A stretch of DNA of 52,812 nt from a virus, in the IMG/VR virus record IMGVR_UViG_3300037070_000996, positions 1-52,812 of that record. One strand, written 5' to 3'. Positions 7,232-52,812 of this stretch are shown piece after piece. The notes under the pieces are model-generated. The model saw only the letters and a list, made by a program, of their open reading frames with translations. It was not told the DNA's origin and ran no database searches. Numbering within the stretch: the first letter of the stretch is position 1; each line of letters begins with the position of its first letter. A program made the translations under genes and the position numbers.

Positions 7232-9235
7232 GTGGCGGGTCGATTAGTTGTAAGATCTGTCCCTAGTTCGCCTCCGGCAGCCTCTGATCTGCAGGCACCC
7301 CAGCAGTTGGCTGGCCTAGACATCACGACACCGGTAGGGCAGATCATCTGCACTATGTCCCCTACGGCGGATATGCACGATGGGGTGACGCCAGGCACGG
7401 GAGTAGGACTCTACACCTTCGATGTTAACGGGGCAACTACGACCTACGCTGCTCCAAGCACAGAGATCATCGTGGCACCGACCCTACACCAGATAGGGGT
7501 CACTGGTGCTACGCTAGTCCAGAACGGTAAAAGGGTGACACTGTCAGCTGCTGGTACCGGGTTTGACAATACCTCAGACCAACTGGCTCTTGCGGGGTGG
7601 CCGCTAACGGGCGACTTCGATGTGTACGTCGATCTGGCTGCTTTCACGGGAGCAGGCTACGAGTACGCAACTGCGGTTCTGATGTGGAGAGACGTCTCTC
7701 TGGCAAACGTAACCACGGTCACTGGAGCAAAGTTTGGCTCAATAGGGTACTGGCGTAGTGCAGACAACATCGGCATTGACTTTAAGGGTCGATCAGTCCT
7801 GGATCAGGTGTACGACATACACCAGTTCGTCACCGGCTCGGGCAGTCCAGGGTGGCTGCATATCCGCCGTAGGTCAAATAATTTCACCTATCGGTACTCA
7901 GCCGATGGTAGCCTGTTTAATACGCTGTATTCGGAGACTCGTACTGCCAGTAGTACCTTGATGGTCGGTGTAGGTGTCAGCGACAACCAAGCCACGCCAG
8001 TGACTATGACCGCTGTGTTCGACGATGTACACTACACGCAGGGTGCGGATGTTGTCCACACGATTAACTCTACAGACCCTACCACCCGAATTATCAAAGT
8101 TAAGGCCAGAGATGCCTCGGCTGCCCTTAACGAGACTGCTTACACAGCCACGCAATCTGCAGTTCCAGGAGTAGCCTCTAGCTCTGTAAAGTTCAGACCT
8201 GGTTTGTGGCCAGAGCCTAACTTCGTATTGTCATACACCAGTGACACAGATTACTGGGACGGTGTGATCCAGCCGTTTATCGATAATGTGGGCACCCTGG
8301 CGGAAGTCACAGGCTTGATGTTCCTGGTAACCATTGGGGTGTTGAGTAAGGACCAGGGTGACTACAGTGAGGGAGAAGCCGTCATAGATGAGCTTGATGC
8401 TCGTATGCGCGCTATCGGCAAGCCGTACCTATTGCACATCTGGGACAGGAAGTTCGGTGGATCACTCCCGACTGTGCCCCAATCTTCCAGTACACGAGCC
8501 TTTGCCGACTGGCACATCAGTGGCAACCATGTGGCCTCAGGTTCGTTTACGCACTATTTAAAGATATGGAATGCTACAGAGATGGGGTACCTCATCGATG
8601 TGTATCGCCATTTTGGCGACTATCTGGACTCTAACGCTTACTGCGAGGGTTTTGAGAACGCCGAATCGGCTATGGACTCTACCGCACCTACCTGGAGTTA
8701 TTCCGGTATGAGGACCCAGACTTACCGATTTATAGATGAAGTTGGTCCTAAATGGCCCACATCTTTGAAGCGGTACAATCTTAATTTTTATGACACCTAC
8801 GATCAAACAGGTATCAACAACGCAGCCAGCTTAGTTTCCTATTTGTACGGCGCGGGATGGGGTATCGGCGGGCCGGACATGTACACCACCACCGGGCCGT
8901 CCATGGGCGAGGGCATTGTGAGGGGTTTGGGGTCTTATTCACCTGGTGTTGGCGAGTATGGGTTCCAGCCAGATTTCGGCAGTATAGACTATCGATCGCT
9001 TATGTCTGTGGCGTACCACATGGAGTACATCCACACCCGATCAAAAGAGGTTGTGTACGCGTACAGCCACGACCAGATAATGAATCACTACCTGCACTGG
9101 TCGGTAGCAACCGCCGGTGAGCTGGATCAGCAGGGCGCCGTTATTACGACAGCCAACGCTTGGCCAGCAGTCTACGCCTACCTTGCCTCTCAGGCTGAAC
9201 CTATAACTAACATTACGAGGCCGGCGAACATATAA
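7232..9235 (+). CDS. Large virion protein with a glycosidase-like C-terminal domain
   Basis: 667 aa from a GTG start. Residues about 85-290 look like a concanavalin/LamG-type beta-sandwich (DFDVYVDL, ADNIGIDFKG, RYSADGSLF, FDDVHY). Residues about 325-650 look like a TIM-barrel hydrolase of the cellulase/GH5-like superfamily: LLHIWDR, WHISGNH, HYLKIWNATEM, CEGFENAESAM with candidate acidic residues, KRYNLNFYDTYD, GIGGPDMYT. Likely an adsorption protein that binds and cleaves or trims a surface polysaccharide. Exact family and catalytic residues need a structure search. It is followed by two further adsorption-type proteins. Confidence 0.65.
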   Translation: MAGRLVVRSVPSSPPAASDLQAPQQLAGLDITTPVGQIICTMSPTADMHDGVTPGTGVGLYTFDVNGATTTYAAPSTEIIVAPTLHQIGVTGATLVQNGKRVTLSAAGTGFDNTSDQLALAGWPLTGDFDVYVDLAAFTGAGYEYATAVLMWRDVSLANVTTVTGAKFGSIGYWRSADNIGIDFKGRSVLDQVYDIHQFVTGSGSPGWLHIRRRSNNFTYRYSADGSLFNTLYSETRTASSTLMVGVGVSDNQATPVTMTAVFDDVHYTQGADVVHTINSTDPTTRIIKVKARDASAALNETAYTATQSAVPGVASSSVKFRPGLWPEPNFVLSYTSDTDYWDGVIQPFIDNVGTLAEVTGLMFLVTIGVLSKDQGDYSEGEAVIDELDARMRAIGKPYLLHIWDRKFGGSLPTVPQSSSTRAFADWHISGNHVASGSFTHYLKIWNATEMGYLIDVYRHFGDYLDSNAYCEGFENAESAMDSTAPTWSYSGMRTQTYRFIDEVGPKWPTSLKRYNLNFYDTYDQTGINNAASLVSYLYGAGWGIGGPDMYTTTGPSMGEGIVRGLGSYSPGVGEYGFQPDFGSIDYRSLMSVAYHMEYIHTRSKEVVYAYSHDQIMNHYLHWSVATAGELDQQGAVITTANAWPAVYAYLASQAEPITNITRPANI

Positions 9236-9957: not shown

Positions 9958-11223
9958 ATGGCTGATAATGTGGCAATCACACCGGGCGCAGGCGCGTCCA
10001 TTGGTACTGACGATGTTGGTGGCGTCCAGTATCAAGTAGTCAAGTTGGGGGTAGGCGACGATGGCGCCATGGCCCTCGCAGCGTTGACGGCACCCTTGCC
10101 TGTCAGACTGTCAGACGGCACAAGCGCTATCACGACACTCCCCGTAAGTTTAGCCTCAGTGCCCTCCCACGCTGTCACTAATGCTGGCACGTTCGCTGTG
10201 CAAGCGGGATTGAATGCCGGTACAAACAACATCGGCGATGTGGACATTTTGACAATCGCAGCAGGCGACAACAATATCGGTAATGTCGATGTTGAAAGTG
10301 TCGTGGCTGGCACCGGCCCTACAAATTTAGGTAAAGCTGAGGACGCAGCGCACACATCCGGTGACACGGGTGTAATGAGCCTTGCTGTACGAAACGACAG
10401 TGATACAGCTCTTGCTGGGACGACCCTGGATTACGCACCCTTGCAAGTTGACGCCACGGGTTACTTGAAGGTTAACGTTAAAGCAGGTTCATTGGCAGGT
10501 CCTTCTGTCAACGATGACGAGGCGTTTACTGTCGGTGTCACCCCAGTAGCCCCAGTCGGCGGCTTGTACATGGCTTCCCCAGATTCTGTCGATACGGGCG
10601 ACATTGGTGCCTTCGGCATGACTGCCAACAGATCTCTGTTTGTTGCGCTCAGAACGCCTAACGGCGACAGTGCGATGGACGACACAAACGATAGTGTCAA
10701 GGTTACGATTTCTTCGGGCAGTATCGTGGGTATAGCAGACGACGCCGCATTTACGATAGGTGTCAGTGAAGTCCTTCCCGTAGGCTACCTCGCAGATGAT
10801 ACCTCTACGGATAGTGTTAACGAGGGAGATATCGGCGCAGCCCGCATGACCCTAAATCGTAAGATCATATCTCAGCCCTACGAGGGTGAAGGTAACTCCT
10901 GGTCTTATGCGGCACCCGCTGGAGGCTTGGTTAACACGACGGAAGTGACAGCTAAAGCTTCTGCTGGCTCTGGTCTTATCAACTACATAACGAGCATCCA
11001 GGTCACCAACTCACACGCTACCACAGGCACTGAGATTCAAGTTCTAGATGGCACGGCAGGCACAGTGAAGCATCGCGGCTTTGCAGCTGCGTTAGGTGGC
11101 TACGTAGCTACGTTTCCTGTGCCCATCAAGATGACAGCAGCTACGCTCGTCAGCATTAAAGAGGCTACTACGACGGCTACGACTGGCGTTCTAGTTAACC
11201 TTCAAGGCTACGTAGGCGCGTAA
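9958..11223 (+). CDS. Modular virion (tail/fibre) protein with internal repeats
   Basis: 421 aa. The N-terminus carries a motif common to phage structural proteins (a DDVGGVQYQxVKL segment at about residue 20). Two related modules start near residues 182 and 258: AFTVGVTPVAPVG versus AFTIGVSEVLPVG, each followed by DSVxxGDIGAxxMTxNR. A C-terminal domain (about 330-421) has AGSGLINYITSIQVTN, typical of a beta-sandwich seen in many phage structural proteins. The repeats suggest a bead-like surface appendage. It starts right after the previous stop. Confidence 0.65.
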   Translation: MADNVAITPGAGASIGTDDVGGVQYQVVKLGVGDDGAMALAALTAPLPVRLSDGTSAITTLPVSLASVPSHAVTNAGTFAVQAGLNAGTNNIGDVDILTIAAGDNNIGNVDVESVVAGTGPTNLGKAEDAAHTSGDTGVMSLAVRNDSDTALAGTTLDYAPLQVDATGYLKVNVKAGSLAGPSVNDDEAFTVGVTPVAPVGGLYMASPDSVDTGDIGAFGMTANRSLFVALRTPNGDSAMDDTNDSVKVTISSGSIVGIADDAAFTIGVSEVLPVGYLADDTSTDSVNEGDIGAARMTLNRKIISQPYEGEGNSWSYAAPAGGLVNTTEVTAKASAGSGLINYITSIQVTNSHATTGTEIQVLDGTAGTVKHRGFAAALGGYVATFPVPIKMTAATLVSIKEATTTATTGVLVNLQGYVGA

Positions 11224-27200: not shown

Positions 27201-29229
27201 TGGCGAGGACGCCCACCGAGTATCGTCGTACAAAGCACTCAGCCTGTACATGGGGCACGTGGCTAATAGGTACTCGACCAACGAACTAAAGATGAACATC
27301 ATTGGTAAGTTCCAGAACAGCTACGGTAAGTACCTGACTAACCCTAGCAACTGGAAGTCCGACCTAAAGAATGAGTTCTTCAATGACCTCAGTCTCAAGC
27401 GATCTATTGAGGCGCAGCGGGACTACATCAAAGACATCATTCGCCTTCCAGATCCTATGCAGGATTGGTGGAACCAGAAGATGAGAAACCTGGCGGAAGT
27501 TATGGAAGGTTCACGGCTCGGTGGGAAACCACGGGACTGGGTAATGCAGGCGGGTCTTCGTGACCCTACGGCAGCCCTTCGTACGGCTACGTTCCACTTG
27601 TATCTCGGCATGTACAATATGTCCCAGTTCCTCGTGCAAGGATTGGGCATGACGGTCGCTGCGAGTGCGTACCCGACCAAAGCCGCCAAGCTGATCCCTA
27701 AGAATTTCGCACTACGAGCTATGTGGCACGAACGGGGCAACCCTGGTGCTGTCTCTAAAATATTGGAAGGTATCGGTGTTGACGCAGATGAACTTACAGA
27801 AATTGCTAAAGAGATTGATAGAATTGGACTCTTCGATAGTCTCAAAACCAGCGCAGATTACAACGCGGGAATTAACGGAATATCAGCAACTGGTGACGCA
27901 GTACGTCGAGTATTTGATGGGGCACTTATGCCAATGCGAGAAGGGGAGCAATTCGCAAGAGGCTACGGGTATCTCCTTGCAAGGGATCTCTTTCTAAAAG
28001 GCAAGAAGAACCACAAGCTGACAGAGAAGGAGATCGATCAGGTCGCCAGAGATTCTCTTAAGTTCACGTTAAACCTGAACAGGTCCAACAGAGCGTTCTG
28101 GCAGAATGGCGTGCTCAGTATTCCTACACAGTTCTTGCAGGTGACTACTAAGTTTTACGAGAACATGATTGCGGGCTCCTTTGACAGGTCGATTCGTTCT
28201 AAGGTATTCGGTGGTTCAACTACGAAAGGCTACGGCAATCGAGTTTGGACTGCTGGAGAGAAAGCCAAGATTATGCTTGGTCATCTCGCCATGTTCGGGA
28301 TGGCTGGCGTACCGTTTATGGATAGCGCTGTATCGAACTTTACAGAGCTGTACCGCTCAGCTACTAACGACCCTCGTGAGATGACGACCGATAGGTTGAA
28401 TATCTTTAATGGTACAGCTGGTGTGGATGACGCTACGTTCGCTCGTGCTGCTCGTGGCGGTCTTGTGCAGGTTATGGCGCACTTCATTACTGGGGCCGAC
28501 CCGGAGTTGACCAGTCGTCTCAGCATCCCGGCGGGTATCGAAGACACTGTTGAAATGTATCAGCATGGAGATAAGGATATGCTAGCCGCTCTTGGCGGTG
28601 CTATGGCTCCTGGGATGGGGCGAGTATTCGACAGTATCGTCGGACTCGGTCGTATCTTCAATTCCTCGTTCTCAGAAGGTATGTCTGACGAGGAACTGAA
28701 ACAAGTAATGCGAGAGTTGTCCGGTGTGTTCAGCTCAACCAGGAACCTGGATAAAGCGTACTGGTTCCATAAGCTAGGCGGGATGAGAAATAACAAAGGG
28801 CAGCTCATCGTTGAACTTGGCGACGAGGAGCTTAATTCAACACTACTGTGGCAGGCTGCTGGATTCAGTTCAGCCAAGGTAGGCTACATGTTCGATCTGC
28901 AGCACGGCGCCGCGGAGTTGAAGCGACGAAAGACCGAAGCTACAGCACTGATTAACGACACCATGGATCGTTACTTTGCTGCACCCAACTTGCTGCAATC
29001 AGAATCCAATCAGAGACATCTCAACAAGATTGTCGAGACTGTTCTTTCGGACTTAACTGAAGCAGAAAGAGTCGATGTTTTGAAGGGCGTTAAGACGCAT
29101 CTTGCTGATGACGATCAGAAGCTTCTAAAAGCAGTAACTGATTCTGTCAAAGCAACGGCGGAAGCTGGCGGACGTGGTACAGCCGGTTCACTTCTCAATC
29201 CGCTTCTCGTATCACCAGAGGTTAAATAA
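24283..29229 (+). CDS. Very large internal virion / ejection protein
   Basis: 1648 aa, the largest protein encoded. It is largely helical and charged, without signal peptide; a long helical part spans about 380-660. Late segments contain amphipathic hydrophobic helices (for example around residues 1090-1130 and 1330-1350: MYNMSQFLVQGLGMTVAAS, KIMLGHLAMFGMAGVPFM), suited to membrane insertion. I do not see a lytic transglycosylase motif. It takes the position of gp15/gp16 of T7-like phages and probably enters the cell during DNA ejection. Confidence 0.82.
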   Translation: MASRPNEEFGPEWDTASVVDAGVTDDRMVTKAQPSYQAASLTSTESTGARNYQAALEDQNTQGVNWNRGTGSESRDRYAGSVLGAVAANAAGSDIYEAVSKGIDDISSSTDAGVDIYTTVSQQTEESVRRNLDSLSGAANGDVATMTGVYDELKKWRLDKDKPWGFEAFTVQQLDGLAQLYAKDTPIAKERLYQRYGGSMIADEYDKHGKLDTIWDFAKLFVMPGTTLAMGNFTEQFDPKLVGTAVNTLDEVVGRIPNLSIDGKGFEAYKATLDQFWKLPVDKRLVTLPMLDKHIKDIAGSNTFVYMNMMTPFVEKEAYDTVNMDYLVDTATFLGLIPGKPIYKMMTFANKARMARRPIQILKETGNATKAADLINAALADRDANRARKVTGMDRSDLAASVQPFDLTTTVANQVTGVAQDAITRLGDDILKAQGRVDQEFDRALDPSQTPRRIMFDETAKLAHQQEMLNQYAYRSPYPAYAKIVNRTDDGFEVEVEYGSKSSGVYDKEHLEQANKMHEQSIADLHERAAQIREQIPGGIARSDAQSLNVANMDRYREAGLPVKDRTKKKVDTRTLEERADEEFGVDDEVVSIQNQLRAVKEQIKKNNKIIADLDKPLVTQRHPVKYTFKQTGIVDAEELQRGTFPKIASPSQVADQIIRGQVDNATLAEFTEAKLNSSFLHAQRDLVKGTGHAEREAVDKLLLHGDEMGRETFRVDELIDGVDTKWGKVKLDSAKSIALYYGQRRMYQRLHEMKNYLKTRELEVAGYRQLSAKVKKADGMPVKLYAKETMVDELGNPVSNKRVPSGVQRIYDHQTGKVVDVTDEIHKRLGGDWQVVQFRHGYRFEDEVVNFGVIKPNSHLKPITGQVLDYHPGYVTKQRPGVFYTATRESRMLVDGVSKPRYSTVRFFRTEQEGHAWKAGLSADDQQLTTILPDKRYKHSEYMEHDEEFDALNFGGIYTGERTDRSILMGLDGEDAHRVSSYKALSLYMGHVANRYSTNELKMNIIGKFQNSYGKYLTNPSNWKSDLKNEFFNDLSLKRSIEAQRDYIKDIIRLPDPMQDWWNQKMRNLAEVMEGSRLGGKPRDWVMQAGLRDPTAALRTATFHLYLGMYNMSQFLVQGLGMTVAASAYPTKAAKLIPKNFALRAMWHERGNPGAVSKILEGIGVDADELTEIAKEIDRIGLFDSLKTSADYNAGINGISATGDAVRRVFDGALMPMREGEQFARGYGYLLARDLFLKGKKNHKLTEKEIDQVARDSLKFTLNLNRSNRAFWQNGVLSIPTQFLQVTTKFYENMIAGSFDRSIRSKVFGGSTTKGYGNRVWTAGEKAKIMLGHLAMFGMAGVPFMDSAVSNFTELYRSATNDPREMTTDRLNIFNGTAGVDDATFARAARGGLVQVMAHFITGADPELTSRLSIPAGIEDTVEMYQHGDKDMLAALGGAMAPGMGRVFDSIVGLGRIFNSSFSEGMSDEELKQVMRELSGVFSSTRNLDKAYWFHKLGGMRNNKGQLIVELGDEELNSTLLWQAAGFSSAKVGYMFDLQHGAAELKRRKTEATALINDTMDRYFAAPNLLQSESNQRHLNKIVETVLSDLTEAERVDVLKGVKTHLADDDQKLLKAVTDSVKATAEAGGRGTAGSLLNPLLVSPEVK

Positions 29230-31100
29230 TGGCTGAGAAATTTGTAGGCGGAGTAGACACGCCCACCAACCTGCGATTTGAGGCTGATAAGTTTGTCGAC
29301 ACATCGAATCGTTGGGAGAGCGCGCCTAAGGATGCCGCAGCTCTAGCTGACGCTACCGGGACCCTGGCTCTTAATCAGGTGCAGACTCTGTTCACCGATG
29401 AAGCCAATAATCAGAAGGATTACTACACCAGTGCCAGAGCACTCAAGCAAGGTATGTTTGAGGCAGCTACCAGAGAAGATGACGACGCAGTAAACGAGTA
29501 CGGGCGCAAGCTGCAGGACTTGAAGGTTGCTGAGAAGCAAGGGCTCATCTCAGGAACTAACTCTCAGGTTCGTCAGGAGTCTCTGCTCAAGCAAACGATC
29601 AACCGATACCCGCACCGTGAAGAGAAGATACGGCAGATGTACAGCTCCACTAGAGCGAGAGCGGCAGCCGAGAAGGAGCAGTTCAAAGATCCTCAAGAGG
29701 AAGGTATTGATGCACTGATTCAGCGATCGTTCAGTGCTGGCCGCAATCCAGCGCAACAGCTGTCGTACGAGCGTGCTATCGAGAACTTCGATCTACAGAA
29801 GAAACAGTTCGATTCTCGGGTTATGCTCGGTCAGGACATCCAGCAAGACTTTGGCGCAATGGTAGACAAAGAGTTCACTACTGTGGCCTACGACGGCGTG
29901 ATGCAGTGGCTGGACGCTGCTGCCGGTATGTTCAAGACCAACCCCAAGATGACGATAGAAGAGGCGCAGGGCGGCTACGAGCAGGTCAAGGCGCAGATCC
30001 TTCTGAGCTACGACAAGAACGTCGCGCAGCTTCTCCGTCAGTCAGGCAACCCAGACGCTGTGCTTAACCGCGACTTCGTGATGTCGAAGCGTAAGCAAGT
30101 CGAAGACATGATGGACGGGGTTGGAAAGAAGATAAGTTCGATGGACGAACTGGAGAAGAAGAAGCGGATGATGGAGTGGGGTAAGCAGCTCGGATATGAG
30201 AAGCTTATGAAGTACGACCCGTTGATCGCCTGGATGGTCACTGCTAATCCAGAGAAGGGCGCAGCCCTTGCGTTTAACGATTGGGATAAAGCCCAGCAGG
30301 TTATACGTACTCAAGGTGTTGAAAAGTGGAACGTACTAATCAATCAAGCCCACGGCTCAGATAAATCTATCATGCAATTCCAGAGGGACATGATTACAGG
30401 CTGGGACGGTCAGTCCCAATCAACTTATTGGCAGAGTATTGCAGGTAATGGCACTCCGCCAGAATCGACAGGGTTCCCCATGGTAGATGCAACTAGAGTA
30501 GGTGCTGTAGTTAGCACCACGCTCAACAGCCCTAATGCTACACCAGAGATGAAGTCTAACGCAGCTCAAGCGTCGCTGAAGGCGGAGAGACAGTACTCGG
30601 AACCCGGAGAGTACCTAGGTCCCAGTTCTGTGAACTACAAGGACCCAGGTCTGCGTAAGGCGCTGAGAGAGGACAAGGAGTTCCAGAATCTCATGGACAC
30701 TGAGATTGAATCCAGTGCTGCTTCGATCCTCAACAAGATGTCCGGCAAGGAGGAGATGCAAGCTATCCAGTTTGCACCGCAGATGGAGAGAGAGGGGAGA
30801 GATCCGGAGAAGGCGTACCCAACTGGTGGGCCGTTTACTTCCGAGGTTGGCGTGAAGGAGAACGCCAGTGCGAATGCACGGATGGGGAGGACTATGGGTG
30901 CTACCAGTCAGTCCTGGGACTTAGCGAGTTCCAAACAGTACGTTGACGCTCTGAACAAGATGTACTGGATCAAGCGCACCATGTACGGTCCAGCGACAGC
31001 TGAGGACTGGGCAAGCACTGTCGTAAGCGAGGCTCAAGCCGCAGCTGACGAGATTATCAAAGCTGAAGAGACTGCTAAGAAGAAAGAGGTCAAGGGTTAA
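29229..31100 (+). CDS. Internal virion / ejection protein, second large one
   Basis: 623 aa, overlapping the previous stop (TAATG). Helical, rich in Gln, Lys, Glu and Met, with several coiled-coil-like stretches (VEDMMDGVGKKISSMDELEKKKRMMEW). No enzyme motif seen. Position after the giant internal protein and before lysis genes supports a gp15-type core protein. In T7 the order is gp14, gp15, gp16; here the larger one comes first. Confidence 0.75.
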   Translation: MAEKFVGGVDTPTNLRFEADKFVDTSNRWESAPKDAAALADATGTLALNQVQTLFTDEANNQKDYYTSARALKQGMFEAATREDDDAVNEYGRKLQDLKVAEKQGLISGTNSQVRQESLLKQTINRYPHREEKIRQMYSSTRARAAAEKEQFKDPQEEGIDALIQRSFSAGRNPAQQLSYERAIENFDLQKKQFDSRVMLGQDIQQDFGAMVDKEFTTVAYDGVMQWLDAAAGMFKTNPKMTIEEAQGGYEQVKAQILLSYDKNVAQLLRQSGNPDAVLNRDFVMSKRKQVEDMMDGVGKKISSMDELEKKKRMMEWGKQLGYEKLMKYDPLIAWMVTANPEKGAALAFNDWDKAQQVIRTQGVEKWNVLINQAHGSDKSIMQFQRDMITGWDGQSQSTYWQSIAGNGTPPESTGFPMVDATRVGAVVSTTLNSPNATPEMKSNAAQASLKAERQYSEPGEYLGPSSVNYKDPGLRKALREDKEFQNLMDTEIESSAASILNKMSGKEEMQAIQFAPQMEREGRDPEKAYPTGGPFTSEVGVKENASANARMGRTMGATSQSWDLASSKQYVDALNKMYWIKRTMYGPATAEDWASTVVSEAQAAADEIIKAEETAKKKEVKG

Positions 31101-36172: not shown

Positions 36173-36697
36173 TTAGATTCTCTCTACTAGTTTACTTTTT
36201 ATTTTATACGAAGATGGAGCTAGTCCTAGTGCGTGCGCGTAGTCGTGGGGGTAACGATGCAACCTTGATTTGAATGTACCGTACAAAGTTCTACCTCGTT
36301 CTCGCCACAGCAATAGGCGAGTTCTGTAGAAAGTACCTTCAAACTCTACGCCGCCCTTGTAAGTCCACGTCGGTGCTGGTCTAGGTTTGCGCACCGCATC
36401 GTTTTTATTAAGTGATGGTTGCAGCTTGTCAATCCAGAATTGCTCTTTTTCCTTAAGGAGCTGCGAATTAAATTCCTCCATACAATCCAATTGAAAGATA
36501 TAGACCCTGGCAGCTGTTTTTACGACATGCCTGGTTGCGGCTAAGGCCCCAGCTTTGTGTTGCCAAAGTCGCTTCTTAAGGCTGTTGGTTGTAGAGCCGA
36601 CGTACAGAGCGTCGTCGATACTAAGACCGTACACGATGCCGTTGTTTTTCTGCCGTTTGTACCAGCGTGCTTGGATAATCGCATTAAGTTGTGACAT
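36173..36697 (-). CDS. GIY-YIG endonuclease, probably homing
   Basis: 174 aa. GIVYGL at about 19-24 and ALYVGSTTNSLKKRLWQHK (about 30-48) give the GIY and YVG elements with the catalytic Arg; an FNSQLLKEKEQFWI helix with Glu follows and then a basic DNA-binding tail (RKPRPAP, FKSRLHRYPHDY). Its start overlaps the DNA polymerase stop by 14 bp. Free-standing GIY-YIG nucleases next to polymerase genes are usual mobile elements of phages. Confidence 0.88.
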   Translation of the reverse strand: MSQLNAIIQARWYKRQKNNGIVYGLSIDDALYVGSTTNSLKKRLWQHKAGALAATRHVVKTAARVYIFQLDCMEEFNSQLLKEKEQFWIDKLQPSLNKNDAVRKPRPAPTWTYKGGVEFEGTFYRTRLLLWRERGRTLYGTFKSRLHRYPHDYAHALGLAPSSYKIKSKLVERI

Positions 36698-38585
36698 CTT
36701 CTAATGGATCTAGTTCGTAGATCGACTCTCCTCCGTCCTTACCTGACCAATTAGTGCCGTACTTGATCTCCACGCCTAGAGGGACCACCAAGTCCACGTG
36801 ATAGACCCGACTAAGATACCCAAGAGTGTCGCTAGTAAATGCGCGATTGCATACACCAGTAAATTCGTCCTTCTCATATTCTGGTACTTCTCCTACCACG
36901 GAGTCGTGGATTGTGTTAGTCAAGAATGCGTTTAATTTAAGTGCTTTGAGGTAATGCCAGACGAAGACCAACGTTATTGGAATGATCTCCCCGGTGGCAA
37001 ACGAGGACATTGGGTAGTTAAATATGTTGGTCTTGTATTTGATGTAGCCGGATCTGTCCATCGTGCAGTCCGGCCAATAGAAGTGGAACCCCCACTCTGT
37101 TGTTATTTTCTTGTCCTTAAGAACTTGATAAGTCCAGCGAGTTTGCTCATCGTACATCGCTTTATAGCGACCTTGAAAGTATCGAGCATAGGCTTGCTGT
37201 TCGGGTGTCTGCCCTTTCGAGCCATACATTGGTCTAAAAGTTTCGGGCTTGTGATATTGCCTTTCGTCAGAAGTGACAGCAGCTTCGGGTTTTTTGAGCA
37301 TCTCACGAGCTGTAGCTTTGTGTACATCCTTCTTCCCCCTTATGTCAGCGAGGGCGACAGCATCTCGCGTAAGATGAGCGCCAATGCGGAACTCCATACC
37401 AACGCCGTCACCTTCAGCAACGTACCACCCCGCATATCTGGCCCGAAACATTCGCTTGTAACGTCTTGGGAAATTTTGAAACTGAAGCTTGTATTTCCGA
37501 CCTGACGACGATAGGCGAGTATTCTGGGTGACTGTTTGATTGTATTGGGCATAAAGCATCCCTCCTTCTTCGTCGCAGGCTGCCTTCATCTTCTCCAGAA
37601 AACGAAGGTCAGCCTCTGCTTCTTTGAGTGGTTTTAGAAGTTCTTTAAACTCTCGTTGAGCCTCTGTTCTAACGACGAGAGCTTCAATAACATCGGCGCC
37701 AGTTGCGAGCGCACCCCCCTCAGTTCGTACAGGGTTTCCTGAGTAGTCGGTAATTTCATCAAATCCCAGAGTTGTGTAGAGGAACGTTCCAATCTGCTTC
37801 GGGCTAGTCCAACTGACTCCTGGATATCGGCTACTAAGACGGCCGTTTGCATTTTCGTGATCGGTATATCGTTGTTCATACTCTTTGTAGACCTCGTCTT
37901 TGTCAAGGAACATCCCGTGTCTTTCGATATCTGCCAAGACAGGCGTGAGCAAACATCTTGTATACAAGTGGGGCAGGAGCGCCAGCTCTGCCAATTCCTC
38001 TCTCTGCTTAAGAAACACCTGTTCTGTGACATCTGTATCTCCGCAGCCGTAGCTGATTAACCAGTCGGTAGGTATCTCTGACGGACAGACTCCACCTTCC
38101 ATAAGGCATCTAACAATCGAAGACTTCTGTCCCAGACCGTAGCGCGCTGCAAGGGCGTCAAGGTGTTTAGGCCCTCGACGATTTCCGAGACGGACATATT
38201 CCCCGATGAGAGTGTCGTAAACAACGAGCTTGGAAATGTCGATACCGTGTCTGGAGAGCCATTGCAGCTCGAATTTGGCGTTTTGACAAACGATGAAATC
38301 GGAAGACTCAATAGCTTCTCGTAGTGGCTTCGGGAGAGAGCCCGTATACTCCCATCTAACATGGTTTGCGGCGACTCCTTGCGTAGTCTTATCTCCTCTT
38401 CTGCGCGATCCGGATAGACGATGTCCACTACCAACGGCCCATGTTGAGAGCACAAGGCGATTATCTGGGTCAAGAGCTGATCCGAAGTCTCGATTGGTGG
38501 TCTCGAAGTCCAAGACTGTGTAGTTGTCACTTAAATATATCTCTGGGTTAGGGTTGATTAGGAAGTCCGGTAGCGCCACTGTCAT
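36684..38585 (-). CDS. DNA polymerase, family A (T7 gp5-like)
   Basis: 633 aa. The start at 38585 has AGAGAGATT just upstream; a longer frame to 38654 lies in the overlap with the SLOG gene. 3'-5' exonuclease: LDFETT (D26, E28), a YGCGDTDVTEQVF Exo III region. Polymerase: motif A EGDGVGMEFRIGAH, motif B region with Lys and PMYG, motif C HDSVVGEVP. Motif C is HDS instead of HDE and motif A has DGVGME instead of DYSQIE, so the active site is divergent but the metal-binding Asp residues are kept. It replicates the phage genome. Confidence 0.93.
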   Translation of the reverse strand: MTVALPDFLINPNPEIYLSDNYTVLDFETTNRDFGSALDPDNRLVLSTWAVGSGHRLSGSRRRGDKTTQGVAANHVRWEYTGSLPKPLREAIESSDFIVCQNAKFELQWLSRHGIDISKLVVYDTLIGEYVRLGNRRGPKHLDALAARYGLGQKSSIVRCLMEGGVCPSEIPTDWLISYGCGDTDVTEQVFLKQREELAELALLPHLYTRCLLTPVLADIERHGMFLDKDEVYKEYEQRYTDHENANGRLSSRYPGVSWTSPKQIGTFLYTTLGFDEITDYSGNPVRTEGGALATGADVIEALVVRTEAQREFKELLKPLKEAEADLRFLEKMKAACDEEGGMLYAQYNQTVTQNTRLSSSGRKYKLQFQNFPRRYKRMFRARYAGWYVAEGDGVGMEFRIGAHLTRDAVALADIRGKKDVHKATAREMLKKPEAAVTSDERQYHKPETFRPMYGSKGQTPEQQAYARYFQGRYKAMYDEQTRWTYQVLKDKKITTEWGFHFYWPDCTMDRSGYIKYKTNIFNYPMSSFATGEIIPITLVFVWHYLKALKLNAFLTNTIHDSVVGEVPEYEKDEFTGVCNRAFTSDTLGYLSRVYHVDLVVPLGVEIKYGTNWSGKDGGESIYELDPLEDVTT

Positions 38586-39060
38586 ACTTAATCTCTCTGA
38601 CCGGTACCCCGGTTCTTTTTGCTTTTCTAACCATGTCCGCTGTCTCGGCCCCACCGGGGAACGCTACCACAATATCAGGCTTCCCTTCGTGCAGCATCTT
38701 TTGATTCCTTATGGAACCTGCACTCTTTCCGTGCTTCTCCCAATCAGCCGGGAATACCTCCAGACCTGTCAAATTAATTATCGCCCATTCGTCTGCCGCC
38801 TTGTCCGCACCACTGGCGCCGCCGTGAATAATTGCGCAGCTTGGGAACCAGCAGTCGTTATTTGGCGTCCCCGTCAATTCAAAGCAGATTGCGTACAACG
38901 TCTTGTGTATGAACCTGAATTCCGCCACACGTTCTCTAGCTAGATCCTCTATTACAATGTACGGGTAGGGTGTAACCAGGCCATTTCTACGGACGTAGTT
39001 ATTGTAGGACTTCGGTAATTCACCGAACGTGCGGCCACCACAAACAAGAATCCTGGTCAT
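38548..39060 (-). CDS. SLOG-family (YspA/DUF2493-like) nucleotide-binding protein
   Basis: 170 aa. Rossmann-type motifs: RILVCGGRTF at the start, IHGGASGADKAADEWA (about 87-102) and FPADWEKHGKSAGSIRNQKML followed by PDIVVAFPGG. This is the DUF2493/YspA branch of the SLOG superfamily, whose members are thought to bind or process nucleotides or nucleotide-derived signals. It overlaps the polymerase start by about 38 bp. Role in phage infection (nucleotide metabolism or counter-defence) is inference. Confidence 0.88.
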   Translation of the reverse strand: MTRILVCGGRTFGELPKSYNNYVRRNGLVTPYPYIVIEDLARERVAEFRFIHKTLYAICFELTGTPNNDCWFPSCAIIHGGASGADKAADEWAIINLTGLEVFPADWEKHGKSAGSIRNQKMLHEGKPDIVVAFPGGAETADMVRKAKRTGVPVREIKYDSGATGLPNQP

Positions 39061-46553: not shown

Positions 46554-46871
46554 TCAGACTATAGCTTTGCCGTTGTAGTTCCAGATCCAGGTCTGTATGT
46601 GCGTGTACCCCGTATTGTGATTTCTGACTTCTGGTGATTCAGTCAAAGTACCGAGACCATTATCCTTGATAAACCGCGCCAACCAAGCTCCGTTTCCCCG
46701 TTCCACATTGTCGCTGAAAATGTACGTGAAATGGTTGGCGGTGCTGTAAGGAAAAGCTAAGGCTTCATGTCGACTTATGGCACGAGCGAGGAGCGGAGGA
46801 GACTTCTCCAGTGAGGCTATATCAGCCAAAATACGTACACCGCAAGACATACTCGTTTTATTGATTCGCAC
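46554..46871 (-). CDS. Small protein B of a paralogous pair (TSxSCGV motif)
   Basis: 105 aa from a GTG with GGGAGAA upstream. TSMSCGV at residues 6-12, then helix, then HFTYIFSDNVERGNGAWLARFIKDNGLGTL and a closing HIQTWIWNYNGKAI. Diverged paralogue of the protein at 45788-46141. Overlaps the stop of the ATP-grasp gene by 14 bp, so it is translated with it. Confidence 0.7.
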   Translation of the reverse strand: MRINKTSMSCGVRILADIASLEKSPPLLARAISRHEALAFPYSTANHFTYIFSDNVERGNGAWLARFIKDNGLGTLTESPEVRNHNTGYTHIQTWIWNYNGKAIV

Positions 46872-47709
46872 TTGGTTCTCCCAATATGGCGGATTTATAA
46901 GCCTCTATCGTTCGCTCGTTCTCAAGTCCCGGAGCTGTATTTACCTCGCAGACAGCCAGTCCAAGAAGCCGATCAGGTTCTTTCCTGCTATACTTACACA
47001 GTATATCGACAGCACCAAAGTCAAGCCCAAGAGCACTAACGGCATTAACAGCGGCAGCATGCACAGCAATACCAGGATGCGCAGGAAGATGTATGCCCAT
47101 GTGTGCGTGTATCCAGCCATGGTCGTGACTCCTGACTATTTTTTCAACACCAGTGCGGGTCTCCTCAGTAGCGCCGAGTCGGAGCTTTTTCTGAGTAAGG
47201 TCGATAACTCTTCCTCCAAAGACGTGAACTCGGTATTCGTGGGTTTTTCTGAAATACTTGGCGTAAAAGTCGAACTTACCACCTTCGACATCCCCTCCTG
47301 CGGGGTCAAGTACAACGATACCTTTCCCACCTGAAAGCCTGTCTCGTCTCGCAAGGACACGGTGGCCTTCACTGCGCCATTTAAGTACTTCTGAACTCTC
47401 AAGTGTACTCTCAATGGTTGGAACTCCTCCGTCCCTGAACTTGGCGTAGGACTCGATTTTACTAAGTGCATGATTGACACCTGCGAATGTGTTCAGGACA
47501 CGAGCTTTCGAATTCAGCCACCGGGGAGGTAGCGTAGTCCCCCAATTAACAATAAGACGGTTAGGATCAATGACATTTCCAGCCAGAAGTGGCCTCTCCA
47601 CCAGCCAGCGTCTGCACCCAAGCACACGACCAAGTAGACCAGCAGAGTGGCTTGCTCGATTAGCGTAAATGATGAGATCACGCCGCCTCCCGAACTGGTT
47701 GCGCTTCAT
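46858..47709 (-). CDS. ATP-grasp peptide ligase-like protein
   Basis: 283 aa. ATP-grasp signatures: LARRDRLSGGKGIVV (phosphate-binding loop region, about 142-156), FYAKYFRKTHEYRVHVFGGRVID (about 168-190), and GLDFGAVDILCK then CEVNTAPGLEN (Glu and Asn metal ligands, about 250-265). The family forms amide or peptide bonds through an acyl-phosphate (RimK, YheC/D-like). ATGA overlap with the cyclotransferase. In the context of amidoligases and a glutamine amidotransferase it probably joins amino acids or amines to a peptide or protein. Confidence 0.88.
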   Translation of the reverse strand: MKRNQFGRRRDLIIYANRASHSAGLLGRVLGCRRWLVERPLLAGNVIDPNRLIVNWGTTLPPRWLNSKARVLNTFAGVNHALSKIESYAKFRDGGVPTIESTLESSEVLKWRSEGHRVLARRDRLSGGKGIVVLDPAGGDVEGGKFDFYAKYFRKTHEYRVHVFGGRVIDLTQKKLRLGATEETRTGVEKIVRSHDHGWIHAHMGIHLPAHPGIAVHAAAVNAVSALGLDFGAVDILCKYSRKEPDRLLGLAVCEVNTAPGLENERTIEAYKSAILGEPSANQ

Positions 47710-48284
47710 AGTGCCTCCGCACCTGGGCCAATCTGCGGCTGCTTCTCCGGAAGCTTCGGCACAACGACGAGTGCTTTCTCCCTGTCTGCCTTAGCCTTCT
47801 CAGCGTAAGTGTCTACGTGCACGCTCAGCGCACTAGAAGGTACGATTATCGGAGAGCCAACCGGTTCTCCTGCTTGGTAACGACTGTAGAACTCCTTCAA
47901 GGCTTTGTACGCGGACCTGTCTAGGTTCCCCCCACGCCAAAGACCGTGCGTCACCACCATCGTGTGATCCGTAAGTGGGCGATCTTCCGCCCATTTGTAC
48001 GTCCACACATCTCCGTGCTTGGTCGTCGCGACCTTCACACGTCTGTACATATGCGGAACACCTTCCAGGGCGTCCAGCCTGGCCATGGTCGGCATATCAA
48101 CTTCATAGACCTCCCCAGAAACCTTGCACAGAGGAGTCAATTCGTGCATCAAGGCGGGGCAACCACCAAGGTGCAGTAACACACCCATGATCCTGTCATG
48201 CCCTACCCTCTTCGCACTGTTCAGGTAGTACGAGTTGTTGCTATAGGTCGACTTGAGTGTGCCGTAAACGAAAATCTTTTCCAT
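47706..48284 (-). CDS. Gamma-glutamylcyclotransferase-like (GGCT/AIG2) protein
   Basis: 192 aa. The start at 48284 (MEKIFVYGTLK) removes an unsupported N-terminal extension to 48401. YGTL (7-10), GxVYEV and LDALEG with the catalytic Glu at 74 are the GGCT signature. Enzymes of this fold release 5-oxoproline from gamma-glutamyl compounds or act as gamma-glutamylamine transferases. The C-terminal 60 residues are a charged, Pro-rich tail. Coupled with the ATP-grasp gene; in phiEco32-like loci such a protein trims or transfers glutamyl groups. Confidence 0.88.
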   Translation of the reverse strand: MEKIFVYGTLKSTYSNNSYYLNSAKRVGHDRIMGVLLHLGGCPALMHELTPLCKVSGEVYEVDMPTMARLDALEGVPHMYRRVKVATTKHGDVWTYKWAEDRPLTDHTMVVTHGLWRGGNLDRSAYKALKEFYSRYQAGEPVGSPIIVPSSALSVHVDTYAEKAKADREKALVVVPKLPEKQPQIGPGAEAL

Positions 48285-48300
48285 CTTTGATACCAGCTTT

Positions 48301-48315
48301 GTTAACGTAGTTAAC
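48301..48315. promoter_or_regulatory. GTTAAC-GTA-GTTAAC palindrome (operator-like site 11)
   Basis: Lies exactly between the amidotransferase stop (48316) and the cyclotransferase start (48284), 16 bp upstream of the latter. It divides the amidoligase cluster in two. Confidence 0.7.
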
Positions 48316-49974
48316 CTAATGTACAGCGGAGATTTTACCTCCGAAGTACTCGTTCTGAACCTCCTCCTCTCCGCAGCAAACTGCGCATATTGCTGATTCA
48401 CCTACCCATCTAACCTGGTGCGCCGTCTTAGGGTCGACGAACAGACCACAATGCCCACACCCGTGTCGCGCCGTCTTGTCCACGAAATCTTGTTCTGTGA
48501 TCATCGATCCGCCTGGTCCTTGCACGTATACTGTAGTCTTCGCCTCCTTACTGCGCCACGGATCGACTGTCGCCTCTGCTTCAGCCTGTGCGTGCTCAGA
48601 CACAAGCGTGAGCGTAGGTCTGCTGTCTTCTTTCCTCGGCACCGGTGTTAGAATCCCGCCGTGGTAGCCGGTGAGTTTCTGCCTCGTTATAACAGAGTGC
48701 AGCGCACAAACTAGCACTGTCTTTCCTATCTTCTTGTTAATCTTGATGTTCACGACAATTCCATAAACAGCACTAGCTCTTTGCATCTCCGCCCACTCAG
48801 TCGCGCTCACCCACGGGATTTGTACAGGAATCGTTGGATTATGTGTCCTAGATGCCCTAACGGTCCCGAATTCCCTTTGGTTTGTGTGAAGATCGAAGGC
48901 TTCTGGTTTGAGAAGGATCTGCTGTCCGAGTCGTGCACCGTACTTGGCAACCTTAAGGAAGATTGCTTTAATTTTTCCTTTACTTGTAGGTATACCTGAT
49001 CCTCTTTTAGCGTCTTTGTTGAGTCCGTTGAACTGTGTGATGAGTTCACTAAGTTCTTTGTCTCCAAGACTGAGCCAGTGTTCGGAACCTGATTGGGGTG
49101 CCCCCCTCGGCGCGTCACTCCCGCCAGTTGCCGTACTTTTCGAGGAGGTACCGCTTCCACTCGTCTCCGTGTTCGATATCATCGAGCGGTCCTTCCAATC
49201 CGATAACTGTGAATGGCCCCGATTTTCCCATAGGGCGTCTGTCGATGACGTCTGGTTCTGGGGCCGCATAAAAGGGTGGCGACTGAAGCTCCTTGGATCG
49301 TCCACAGGAAACTTGAGATGGACGTAAGTCGGTACGATTTTAAACAAACCGTCCATTTTGACGTCGTTCCTGTTTAGTACTAGCCACAACATGTCCATCT
49401 CTGATGCCCACCAGACAACGTTGGAGTCCTTGATGAACGCCAACACCATCTCTCGCCCCTCATTACGGGCAATGTTTAGTGTGCGCTCCTTTGAGTCGTA
49501 CCACACCAGTGCGAAGGCACCTTTGAGCTTTTCCAAGCCTGCTTGTGCGCCGTGCTCGGCGATGGCATATGCAGCTGCTTCTGAGTCAACGTCTGGCCCA
49601 AAGCCCTTTGGAGTGATCCCCCAGGCGTTGTTAATGTAGCCGTTGTGAACAAGGGTGATGTGCCTATTGGTAAACGGGTGTGCACGGTGATCTCCTAGAT
49701 TGTTACTAGATGCTGCCCTATTGTGCCCTATGACCATGCGGGCGTCGCTTATGAACGGAGCGAGCGTCTTCTGGTACCCATTAGAAGTCAAGAATTCAGG
49801 CCCCCAAAGACCCCGCTTATAGACAATGAGTTCATCCCGCTTCTCTGGTAGAACGGCCATACCCGTACCATCTGAGCCTCGAAGAACATCAACTATAGTC
49901 AACTCCTCTATCAGCTTCTTGGCTTTCGGCATGTACCTGTAGCCGCCATTTACGAATCCAAAAATCCCACACAT
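48316..49974 (-). CDS. Class II glutamine amidotransferase with a long zinc-finger tail
   Basis: 552 aa. MCGIFGFVNGG gives the N-terminal nucleophile Cys2; RGSDGTGMA, IGHNRAAS, HPF and LVHNGYINN are the usual Ntn-hydrolase GATase II motifs (residues 1-230). After a Ser/Thr/Gly-rich linker (about 255-300) comes an unassigned beta-rich domain (about 300-440) and a zinc finger (CGHCG near 510 and CAVCCG near 533). It hydrolyses glutamine to give ammonia, likely channelled to the neighbouring ligases. The C-terminal half is not typical of the family. Stop codon next to a GTTAAC palindrome. Confidence 0.9.
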   Translation of the reverse strand: MCGIFGFVNGGYRYMPKAKKLIEELTIVDVLRGSDGTGMAVLPEKRDELIVYKRGLWGPEFLTSNGYQKTLAPFISDARMVIGHNRAASSNNLGDHRAHPFTNRHITLVHNGYINNAWGITPKGFGPDVDSEAAAYAIAEHGAQAGLEKLKGAFALVWYDSKERTLNIARNEGREMVLAFIKDSNVVWWASEMDMLWLVLNRNDVKMDGLFKIVPTYVHLKFPVDDPRSFSRHPFMRPQNQTSSTDALWENRGHSQLSDWKDRSMISNTETSGSGTSSKSTATGGSDAPRGAPQSGSEHWLSLGDKELSELITQFNGLNKDAKRGSGIPTSKGKIKAIFLKVAKYGARLGQQILLKPEAFDLHTNQREFGTVRASRTHNPTIPVQIPWVSATEWAEMQRASAVYGIVVNIKINKKIGKTVLVCALHSVITRQKLTGYHGGILTPVPRKEDSRPTLTLVSEHAQAEAEATVDPWRSKEAKTTVYVQGPGGSMITEQDFVDKTARHGCGHCGLFVDPKTAHQVRWVGESAICAVCCGEEEVQNEYFGGKISAVH

Positions 49975-51101
49975 TATTCGGTTTCTCCATCTACTAAGGG
50001 TATGTCTTGATACGTAGGAGCAGGTCGTGGTGGTGGTGGGTCGAATGCGCGGGCGTTCACGTTCATATTCAGAAAGAATCTCTCAAATGCGACGTCGTGA
50101 ACGCGAGGTTGCGGAATAGCGGCGCCCCCAGCAGGGCTCACCTTCTTAGTCCTTGACTTCTGTGTAGATGCCGGAGGGGCTTCTTTTCCCTTGGCCCACC
50201 TATCGAAAGATGAACCTGGGCCAGGTGCGAATCTAGCGGCAGCGTGTGGGAAGGTAAAGTCTTTGTATGCCAGGTTGAGTACATCCAACATACTTGAGTG
50301 CCCTATGTCCCAAAACTGGTCCTCGAACTGCTCGTACCGCAAAAGGGGCCACAAGTCGCCGAAAACCCTCTCACCGAGAGCCGTAGCGCCGAACTCGTAT
50401 GCAAACCCTATGTACCACTCTGGCCTGATTTGGGCCAGTGAGTTCAACTTCAAACTTAAGCAAACGTTGATCCAGTTGTAAACCCAATCGACATCTGTCG
50501 TGGTCAAGGCTTGCCGGAACTCCACAGAGCCGAACCTAGCCAAAGGATCGAGATTGAGACCAGCGTATTTTTCGTTGCGCAACTGCCCCGCCACGCCTTT
50601 GAGTTTCTCAGATTTGGTGGAGGCTATCTGCGATATCTTCAAGATAGCTCCGTGTGATTTATACCAAGGAAGACAGAACACATTCTCGTCCCTGTCGTTC
50701 CCTACAAATTTGTACAAAGTTGGCTCAAATAGCGCATACAGAACCAACATGTTGACGAGCTGATTCATCTCTAAATCCCGAACATCCACATGAACGTGAA
50801 GCCCGGTGCGAATGGAAGACACATACCCAGCAGTCTTGGCGAAATTACACAAACCAGTAACTGCCGTAATAACGTCTGTGCCGAAGAAGGGGCGACGAAA
50901 TACGAATTCCATCCCTCTATCGTGCAACGAATCGTCTCGTTTACGTTCCCAGTACTGCGGCCACGCTTCTGTAGTGGGCAAACCGGCTATAACTCTCTCG
51001 AACTCAAACTCCAGCCCCAAGGGGCATTTTGGCATTATTAGCCGGTGATCCGGGGTGTTCAAGGCTGATTCCGGGGGGAACCCTAAGTCGTAGCCAATCA
51101 T
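49974..51101 (-). CDS. Amidoligase-family enzyme (GS/GCS-fold)
   Basis: 375 aa. Conserved motifs of the amidoligase family: CPLGLEFEFERV (metal-binding Glu pair, about 26-37), DDSLHDRGMEFVFRRP, TGLHVHVDVRD (about 119-129) and KYAGLNLDPLARFGSVEFRQA (about 185-205). The C-terminal 70 residues are Pro-rich and disordered. Family enzymes use ATP to condense a carboxylate with an amine, often adding glutamate or amines to peptides. TAATG-like junction with the amidotransferase downstream, ATGA upstream, so one translation block. Confidence 0.9.
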   Translation of the reverse strand: MIGYDLGFPPESALNTPDHRLIMPKCPLGLEFEFERVIAGLPTTEAWPQYWERKRDDSLHDRGMEFVFRRPFFGTDVITAVTGLCNFAKTAGYVSSIRTGLHVHVDVRDLEMNQLVNMLVLYALFEPTLYKFVGNDRDENVFCLPWYKSHGAILKISQIASTKSEKLKGVAGQLRNEKYAGLNLDPLARFGSVEFRQALTTTDVDWVYNWINVCLSLKLNSLAQIRPEWYIGFAYEFGATALGERVFGDLWPLLRYEQFEDQFWDIGHSSMLDVLNLAYKDFTFPHAAARFAPGPGSSFDRWAKGKEAPPASTQKSRTKKVSPAGGAAIPQPRVHDVAFERFFLNMNVNARAFDPPPPRPAPTYQDIPLVDGETE

Positions 51102-51754
51102 AGAATGAACTCTATCTCTTTGTTAAGGGTGCGGTGGATGGTGGTGCGATACTCAGCAGCCCATTTGTGCAACTGAATGGTATTGGCCCTAAGAATAACA
51201 CCAATAGATTTGCTCTTGTACGTAAGACTTGGAAACTCGGAGTCACCCAGATACGCGCCGAAGTTGTAGCTCAGGGCGTAAGCGGGAAACTTCGGCGTCG
51301 TGCTTAGCAGGTCAGTCTGCGCTTCGTCCCAAGGTGTATGACCTTGTCTAACTGCATTGTGCACGAAGGGTGCGTGATACATGAGATCGGTCGTGAATGT
51401 TGGATAGTTCCTTTTTGTTAAATACCACCCATTAAATGATAAGTACCCAATCCTTCTTGGATCAAAACCTCGTCCTCCGTTACGAGTAGTCTGGTAATAC
51501 AAATACAACAATTCGTTTTTGTAAACTATAGTGCCTAGGCGAGGTATGCCGAACAGAACAGTGTTCTTTATCATCTCCCAGGTCATGATCACGTTGCGTG
51601 TAAGTCTCCCACTCGTGTACATAGCCATGGTAGCCACTTCGTGTTCGTAACGACCGCCAACCATGTACAGAATGTCGGGATCGACTCGACTTTTGACGAA
51701 ATGCTCAGTGTAGTACTGGATAAAATCGTCAAAGGACTCGACGTCAGTACGCAT
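51098..51754 (-). CDS. Amidoligase-cluster protein of unknown family
   Basis: 218 aa, overlapping the second amidoligase start (ATGA) and ending 3 bp after the type-2 ligase. Mixed alpha/beta with many Tyr and Thr; no catalytic pattern recognised (segments YMVGGRYEHEVATMAMYTSGRL, GRGFDPRRIGYLSFNGW, YALSYNFGAYLGDSEF). Always between two ligase genes here, it may be a partner or another modified or modifying protein. It is the least understood part of the cluster. Confidence 0.7.
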   Translation of the reverse strand: MRTDVESFDDFIQYYTEHFVKSRVDPDILYMVGGRYEHEVATMAMYTSGRLTRNVIMTWEMIKNTVLFGIPRLGTIVYKNELLYLYYQTTRNGGRGFDPRRIGYLSFNGWYLTKRNYPTFTTDLMYHAPFVHNAVRQGHTPWDEAQTDLLSTTPKFPAYALSYNFGAYLGDSEFPSLTYKSKSIGVILRANTIQLHKWAAEYRTTIHRTLNKEIEFIL

Positions 51755-51756
51755 AA

Positions 51757-52617
51757 TTAAAAGTCACCCCCAAGTTGCATTGTGTCACTGATGTGCCTCA
51801 CGAGACTGTTGGCAAGGACTTCGTCTTCGTTTGTTATGGCGGCAGCCACGTCGGCCCAAGGTATGTGGGTATAGGACCTATGTAAAGTCTCTCGAACCCA
51901 CTCGTCGCTGTATGTGCGTTTTGCGAAGTCTATAATATTGTTGGAAATGTTCTGTCTTACGTTGTCTGCCCCAAATAGCCAGAAATTGCTGAGTGTTCGA
52001 TACTCCAGACCATAAGGCTTCGGGCGATACAAACCTGGTAGGCCGTAAATCTTGCGTCGACCACCCTGTTTGTCGTACTTAACGCATGGAAGCCCAATCA
52101 GGACATCCATGTACTTGGCAAAGATGTCGGCGGGGACCGCCTCTTTGTTGTACCCGACGTGAATGTGCCCCCCTGCGTACCGCATAGCGCCAAGGTCAGA
52201 AGCACTGAACGGTTTGCGCTTGTACATGTCTTCTGGAAGCGGGCTGTCTCCAGGGGCGCCGTACGCCCAATGATCTGGAAGACACCCGATCTCTTTCGCT
52301 TTGGGGTGCTCAAGCTGCTCAGAAGTCAACTTGATAGCATTGATACCTGTTGCAATCTCCAGCTTGAGTGGATTGAGAATGTATCTTTGTAAATTCTCCA
52401 TAGCCGAACCGATGCCTTCGGTGAAGCGCGTATATCCCATGAATGCTGGGATATTGAATTCAAGAGCTGCCCCGTCCTCCTGATACGTGAAGCCTGGCGC
52501 ACCCAGCAATATCGGCAGCGGCGCCTTCTTCGTTCCTCCCACAAGACCAAAAATGGGCAGGATTGTTTGCCCCCGCTTTACGAACATCTCAGGGTCTGCG
52601 CCAATTGTAGCATTCAT
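51757..52617 (-). CDS. COOH-NH2 ligase type 2 (phiEco32-like amidoligase)
   Basis: 286 aa. The start at 52617 (MNATIGADPEMF) follows TTGGAG; an earlier Met at 52629 overlaps that site. Motifs of the phiEco32-like amidoligase-type 2 group: GADPEMF (5-11), a QEDGAALEFNIP segment (about 47-58), GGHIHVGYN (about 140-148) and LEYRTLSNFW (about 202-211). This is a GS-fold ligase thought to attach amines or amino acids to a carboxylate in an ATP-dependent way. First gene of the cluster, directly after a GTTAAC palindrome. Confidence 0.92.
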   Translation of the reverse strand: MNATIGADPEMFVKRGQTILPIFGLVGGTKKAPLPILLGAPGFTYQEDGAALEFNIPAFMGYTRFTEGIGSAMENLQRYILNPLKLEIATGINAIKLTSEQLEHPKAKEIGCLPDHWAYGAPGDSPLPEDMYKRKPFSASDLGAMRYAGGHIHVGYNKEAVPADIFAKYMDVLIGLPCVKYDKQGGRRKIYGLPGLYRPKPYGLEYRTLSNFWLFGADNVRQNISNNIIDFAKRTYSDEWVRETLHRSYTHIPWADVAAAITNEDEVLANSLVRHISDTMQLGGDF

Positions 52618-52652: not shown

Positions 52653-52812
52653 CTATCTCGAGATTACGCGGGAGAGGGGTGTTTGTAACGGAAAAGTCTT
52701 CAACAACAGTCTTATTTTCCGCTCTATAGAAGTGCTTGATGCAGCGATTGTGGGCTACGATGCGAGCGAATTTCTTGTCATCCCTATCGTTGGGTGAGCA
52801 TCGAGCGACACC
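52648..52812 (-). CDS. Phage protein of unknown function spanning the genome join (3' part)
   Basis: Continuation of the gene that starts at 316. The last codons (SVTNTPLPRNLEIG) and the TAA at 52648-52650 lie here. Bases 52687-52812 repeat codons already present at the left end. Together the two parts give one 117-aa product. Confidence 0.75.
   Translation of the reverse strand, partial: GVARCSPNDRDDKKFARIVAHNRCIKHFYRAENKTVVEDFSVTNTPLPRNLEIG
52687..52812. repeat. Right copy of the terminal 126-bp direct repeat
   Basis: Identical to 2-127. See the left copy; it indicates circular permutation or a terminal redundancy. Confidence 0.95.

Follow-up and report, generated by a model that had tools for sequence, protein, structure and literature searches.

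A phage amidoligase cassette with protein X as a standing component and an apparent exchange of gamma-glutamyl-cleaving enzymes

Results

Six tightly packed genes open a leftward block

We analyzed a viral DNA of 52,812 nucleotides (nt), positions 1–52,812 of IMG/VR virus record IMGVR_UViG_3300037070_000996 (hereafter the window), and focused on the six genes that open its leftward block, from 52617 to 46858. All on the minus strand, they encode in order a COOH-NH2 ligase type 2 (COOH), a 218-amino-acid (aa) protein that we call X, an Amidoligase_2 protein (AMID), a class II glutamine amidotransferase (GATase), a gamma-glutamyl cyclotransferase (GGCT), and a RimK-like ATP-grasp ligase. A first-pass annotation made from the letters alone had listed six leftward open reading frames (ORFs) here, assigning five to enzyme families. 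All six are present where it placed them, and the profile searches it suggested as a check recovered the five families in Pfam or PHROGs.

COOH (51757..52617, 286 aa) and AMID (49974..51101, 375 aa) are both glutamine synthetase (GS)-like ligases. COOH matches PF14395 COOH-NH2_lig (E 6e-7) and phrog_3815 (E 1e-47), and AMID matches PF12224 Amidoligase_2 (E 2e-9) and phrog_7469 (E 1.5e-42). The GATase (48316..49974, 552 aa) is recognized by PF13522 GATase_6 (E 2e-17) and phrog_4736 (E 5e-62), and the GGCT, of the GGACT/AIG2-like kind (47706..48284, 192 aa), by PF06094 GGACT (E 1e-19) and phrog_2520 (E 1e-13), with YGTL and LDALEG motifs in place. Every one of these four Pfam matches lies above its gathering cut-off. 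The ATP-grasp protein (46858..47709, 283 aa), which like X has no match in the Pfam search, was assigned through the RimK-like phrog_2599 (E 1.6e-43). X (51098..51754, 218 aa) was placed by family hidden Markov models (HMMs) built without the window, by hhalign, and by AlphaFold2 modeling with Foldseek.

The profile of the ATP-grasp family matches alpha-L-glutamate ligase, cyanophycin synthase and RimK chains, and the window protein has C-terminal ATP-grasp catalytic motifs in common with RimK, cyanophycin synthase and D-Ala-D-Ala ligase. Against the NCBIfam model rimK_fam, however, the window protein scores 28.6 bits (E 9e-7), under the curated cut-off of 143.4 bits, and we rejected its identification as RimK, the ribosomal protein S6 glutamate ligase. 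It is predicted to act like an ATP-grasp glutamate ligase outside RimK proper.

Residues expected of active enzymes are retained. In an alignment of seven diverse phages, COOH keeps GADPE, H155/H157, R202, K204 and EYR-SN-W invariant. Alignments with distant phages show the same for G-E-E-E, R98, H102/H104, N183 and EFR in AMID and for K155, E158, R160, D235, E255 and N257 in the ATP-grasp protein. The GATase starts with MCGIFGF, with its N-terminal Cys intact, and C2, R86, N111, G112 and D130 are conserved. The first-pass annotation had named failed profile matches or lost catalytic residues as what would speak against it; instead the matches are significant and the residues checked are conserved. 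The GATase comprises an N-terminal nucleophile (NTN) glutaminase domain (residues ∼1–235), whose model superposes on the GlmS glutaminase 1xff with a TM of 0.73, followed by a disordered linker, a middle beta domain (∼350–430) and a Cys-rich, Zn-ribbon-like tail (C506 and C509 conserved) common to most of 66 aligned relatives. Its residues ∼240–552 include a long low-confidence linker, and the middle beta domain is of unassigned family.

The earlier description of the genes as mostly joined by overlapping stops and starts is fair for the five junctions measured: COOH and X are 2 nt apart, X and AMID overlap by 4 nt, AMID and GATase by 1 nt, and GGCT and ATP-grasp by 4 nt, with a 31-nt gap between GATase and GGCT if the latter starts at ATG 48284. 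This is its likely start, within an ORF open from GTG 48401. The COOH ORF is open from TTG 52629, and ATG 52617 is taken as the correct start because a GGAG Shine-Dalgarno sequence lies upstream of it.

The locus belongs to a known family of phage cassettes

By its gene content and order, the locus is a further copy of the phiEco32/LUZ24-type phage amidoligase cassette, a kind already known. It has the two GS-like ligases, class II GATase, RimK-like ATP-grasp ligase and gamma-glutamyl-cleaving enzyme of that cassette, together with the COOH-X-AMID order. The link to phiEco32 had been drawn in the first-pass annotation, and the same six genes are found there in nearly the same order: COOH gp86, X gp85 (E 1e-15), AMID gp84, GATase gp83, ATP-grasp gp80 and GGCT gp77, with primase/helicase after the cassette. 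In phiEco32 (gp86–gp77), however, the ATP-grasp gene comes before that for GGCT and small ORFs lie between the cassette genes, whereas the window has these two in the opposite order and no spacer ORFs. LUZ24 (gp16–gp22) and UFV-P2 (ORF21–ORF29; PMC3890496) carry the same genes as the window, with the X position occupied by gp17 (189 aa) and ORF22 (186 aa), but GGCT stands at the end and an HNH gene is inserted in UFV-P2; the LUZ24 ligases are only ∼25%–33% identical to those of the window. The seven-gene cassette of RIO-1/PSA-HP1 likewise has GGCT, glutamine amidotransferase, two amidoligases and ATP-grasp, while differing in gene order and accessory ORFs; its function, too, is predicted only (PMC5498523). 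Zobellviridae cassettes (CW02, GP100, CVT22) share COOH, X, AMID, GATase and ATP-grasp with the window but differ in encoding an enzyme like gamma-glutamyl hydrolase (PF07722), either in place of GGCT or in addition to it; the window has no such hydrolase. Gene orders like that of the window thus occur in phiEco32, LUZ24 and UFV-P2, and near variants in QDWS535, CW02, GP100 and PA11-like phages. Similar genes have also been described in OM43 phages (PMC10580990) and TC6 (PMC6209634).

Hundreds of lytic phages, some of them Pseudomonas phages under consideration for therapy, carry the cassette: a tblastn search of 50,697 phage records returned COOH relatives in 310 and AMID relatives in 316. 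Among 80 IMG/VR loci anchored on COOH, AMID was found in 73, GATase in 75, ATP-grasp in 72 and X in 63. In a single scan of 84,980 prokaryote genomes, only 13 loci emerged, all on contigs of metagenome-assembled genomes; seven have COOH, X and AMID in the phage-type order. On this result, we regard the cassette as essentially a phage feature and dropped the idea of a cellular system.

Protein X is a standing component of the cassette

Searched alone, the X of the window has no Pfam family, no direct PHROG match and no PDB relative. We therefore worked from 160 IMG/VR loci with a seed HMM of the same-position proteins of five named phages, excluding the window's own X. This recovered 85 members, and the resulting model, still without the window, matched the window's X with E 3e-15 and led to a family of 125. 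A second window-free model agreed (E 4e-14; hhalign, 96%). Two function-less PHROGs, phrog_11055 and phrog_4877, proved to be parts of this one family, which includes phiEco32 gp85 and LUZ24 gp17. X lies directly before AMID in 124 of 125 cases, usually with an overlap. Every distant match examined sits inside a cassette and none was found in plasmids, on which grounds we rejected X as a general phage protein. As judged from this constant placement, X is a standing component of the cassette.

The family evolves fast. Its conserved core reads P-x-x-G ... R-x-P-x-R-Q-(W/Y)-x-x-G, with A-x-S-x-x-F and Y-x(5)-G in addition, and the window's X deviates from it at several positions (Y87, T89, N92, G93). 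The AlphaFold2 model of X is confident (pLDDT 94, pTM 0.87). Foldseek related it among viral models to its own family only (CW02 gp8, E 3e-10); in the PDB the best match, at E 0.08, was not significant, and the model bears a weak, partial resemblance to small Sm-type barrels. Nothing in these features suggests a catalytic role, and the most likely role of X is to assist the GS-like ligases as a non-catalytic partner or as an adaptor for their substrate. The protein that the first-pass annotation had left unassigned and unexplained can now be given a family and a standing place in the cassette, while its biochemical role we infer only.

In cassettes that have no X (loci L025, L036–L039, L046, L049, L058, L072, L081 and L083), AMID bears an N-terminal extension of 170–215 aa, an X-like size.

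GGCT and a C26 hydrolase appear to replace one another

Several cassettes have a peptidase-C26 protein (C26; PF07722) beside or in place of GGCT. Its nearest solved chain is Lin1909 (3fij), and the expected Cys, His and Glu are invariant. We counted both enzymes in 60 cassettes, all distinct, complete and flanked by at least 2.5 kb on each side; the set was picked by similarity to the window. C26 alone was present in 34, GGCT alone in 20, both in five and neither in one (Fisher p 2e-10, which overstates independence because the labels are clustered on the tree). Both genes are invariably on the cassette strand. Independent Pfam searches of the whole records gave the same picture: GGACT was found in 0/34 and C26 in 34/34 C26-type phages, GGACT in 19/19 and C26 in 0/19 GGCT-type phages, and the record with neither was negative for both. 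The window genome is of the GGCT type, with no C26 found.

On a COOH tree, the four GGCT/C26 labels require eight changes (minimum possible three) spread over the tree, of which strongly supported branches force only two to three per label. By this tree, the trait is clustered, yet has switched more than once. The pattern appears to be one of functional replacement, and gamma-glutamyl cleavage appears near-obligate, since an unrelated C26 hydrolase can substitute for GGCT. Such a replacement would point to a required step, with the gamma-glutamyl group serving for a time as carrier or protection or else being trimmed, rather than to a side activity. PuuA/PuuD and BtrJ/BtrG, the latter in butirosin synthesis, are precedents for a gamma-glutamyl carrier or protecting group. 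The exchange fits such a carrier or protecting group, or the trimming of tags, and does not by itself select a target.

What is new here, the cassette itself being known, is X as a standing part without a known fold relative and the GGCT/C26 swap. Neither is reported in the literature searched, which excludes Iyer 2009 and Hardies 2013.

Discussion

Altogether, the window carries a co-directional, tightly packed set of genes for two predicted GS-like ligases, a RimK-like ATP-grasp ligase, a glutaminase, a gamma-glutamyl-cleaving enzyme and X. We think it probable, taken whole, that this known type of cassette combines amide ligation with a required gamma-glutamyl cleavage, X serving as a ligase partner. 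In the host cytoplasm, the glutaminase would supply ammonia from glutamine, and the three ATP-using ligases would form amide bonds one after another, including one or more gamma-glutamyl bonds; the acceptor would be a host molecule or a small metabolite. GGCT would then take off the gamma-glutamyl group as 5-oxoproline, a required step that would either remove a carrier or protecting group needed only for a time or trim the product. X, without catalytic activity of its own, would assist the GS-like ligases as a partner or as an adaptor for their substrate. Expression is most likely in early or mid-infection.

Several points weigh against this interpretation. No biochemical product of the cassette is known from the literature searched. 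Gene position is what ties X to AMID: co-variation of their distance matrices gave no special signal (partial 0.08), the distances being near saturation, and a fusion of X to AMID in the X-less cassettes was rejected, with the AMID extension aligning to X at hhalign probabilities of 0.05%–0.12%, no better than unrelated controls. As for the exchange, beyond the clustering of labels and the few changes forced by strongly supported branches, both enzymes occur together in the five IMG/VR cassettes and also in CW02 and QDWS535, the ends of the records are uncertain, and the cassettes were chosen by their similarity to the window.

Candidate targets are a peptidoglycan precursor, a protein or a soluble metabolite. 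The first-pass annotation had proposed a branched peptide, amidation or tagging of a protein, or a cell-surface or DNA-associated modification as candidate products. In the literature the cassette already has a name, "peptidoglycan modification cassette" (or module), and is proposed for PSA-HP1/RIO-1, phiEco32 and LUZ24 to block superinfection or weaken the wall (PMC5498523; PMC11945000). We hold it possible, if only tentatively, that the enzymes alter the peptide side chains of cytoplasmic wall precursors and thereby block superinfection or prepare lysis. UDP- or lipid-linked precursors may be within their reach, and expression of the cassette in PSA-HP1 starts immediately upon infection (PMC7082346), but the literature searched contains no wall analysis, and if the pathway ended with the new bond there would be no obvious need for a near-obligate gamma-glutamyl cleavage.

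It is somewhat doubtful that the target is instead a host or phage protein, to which the ATP-grasp ligase and amidoligases would add glutamate or other residues while GGCT or C26 trims the tags. The profile kinship with RimK and with glutamate and cyanophycin ligases is consistent with this, as is the constant co-encoding of X with the ligases, which could be an adaptor or the modified protein. However, X displays no conserved acceptor tail or tag site, its conservation lying in the internal R-x-P-x-R-Q motif, and three different ligases with a glutaminase exceed the needs of simple polyglutamylation.

Rather unlikely to a similar degree is a soluble metabolite, such as an inhibitor or anti-defense molecule, built with a gamma-glutamyl carrier or protecting group. 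The GGCT/C26 exchange fits a deprotection step, and a GS-like ligase paired with a C26 hydrolase mirrors PuuA/PuuD, but no tailoring enzyme, carrier protein or exporter was recognized and no such metabolite is known. DNA base modification through amide ligation is very improbable: the cassette adjoins primase/helicase and polymerase genes in many phages, but no base-hydroxylating or base-carboxylating enzyme was recognized among the window ORFs scanned, and DNA of the cassette-bearing LUZ24-like phage U17 is cut by 11 of 16 restriction enzymes (PMC11945000).

A bolder version of the interpretation we favor, which we would call unlikely as a whole, is a phage-specific non-ribosomal pathway. Its gamma-glutamyl group would serve for a time as carrier or protection and have to be removed by GGCT or C26, X would be an indispensable subunit of the ligases whose fold the PDB does not yet contain, and the product would act early on the host. 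The membership of X and the near-constant, enzyme-exchangeable gamma-glutamyl cleavage narrow the chemistry of the cassette, and both can be tested directly in the laboratory phages LUZ24 and phiEco32.

The phage genome

An exact 126-nt direct repeat joins the two ends of the window (2–127 = 52687–52812, the left copy offset by one base from the end), and because of it we take the window as a complete circular map of 52,685 bp. The layout is that of a podophage, with terminase, portal, major head protein, internal virion proteins and endolysin genes running rightward and PolA, DnaB-like helicase, primase and exonuclease genes leftward. The nearest relatives of the terminase are in Lentibacter, Roseobacter and Celeribacter podophages and in Roseobacter SIO1-like/ICBM/P12053L phages. 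The first-pass annotation had described a T7-type phage of about 52.7 kb; the size holds, while "T7-type" is loose for a podophage with PolA, DnaB, primase and a terminase closest to those of SIO1-like/ICBM/P12053L phages. A T7-like RNA polymerase found no match in the window, in a search that had no working positive control.

Large rightward ORFs without PHROG or Pfam match lie at 7232–9235 (667 aa), 9958–11223 (421 aa) and 29229–31100 (623 aa). Adjoining the DNA polymerase gene is a small YAcAr-domain protein of the SLOG family, related to YpsA (38548–39060), and immediately past the polymerase gene is a GIY-YIG nuclease ORF (36173–36697). The genome also encodes tRNA-His (gtg) at 342–415 and tRNA-Tyr (gta) at 6710–6795.

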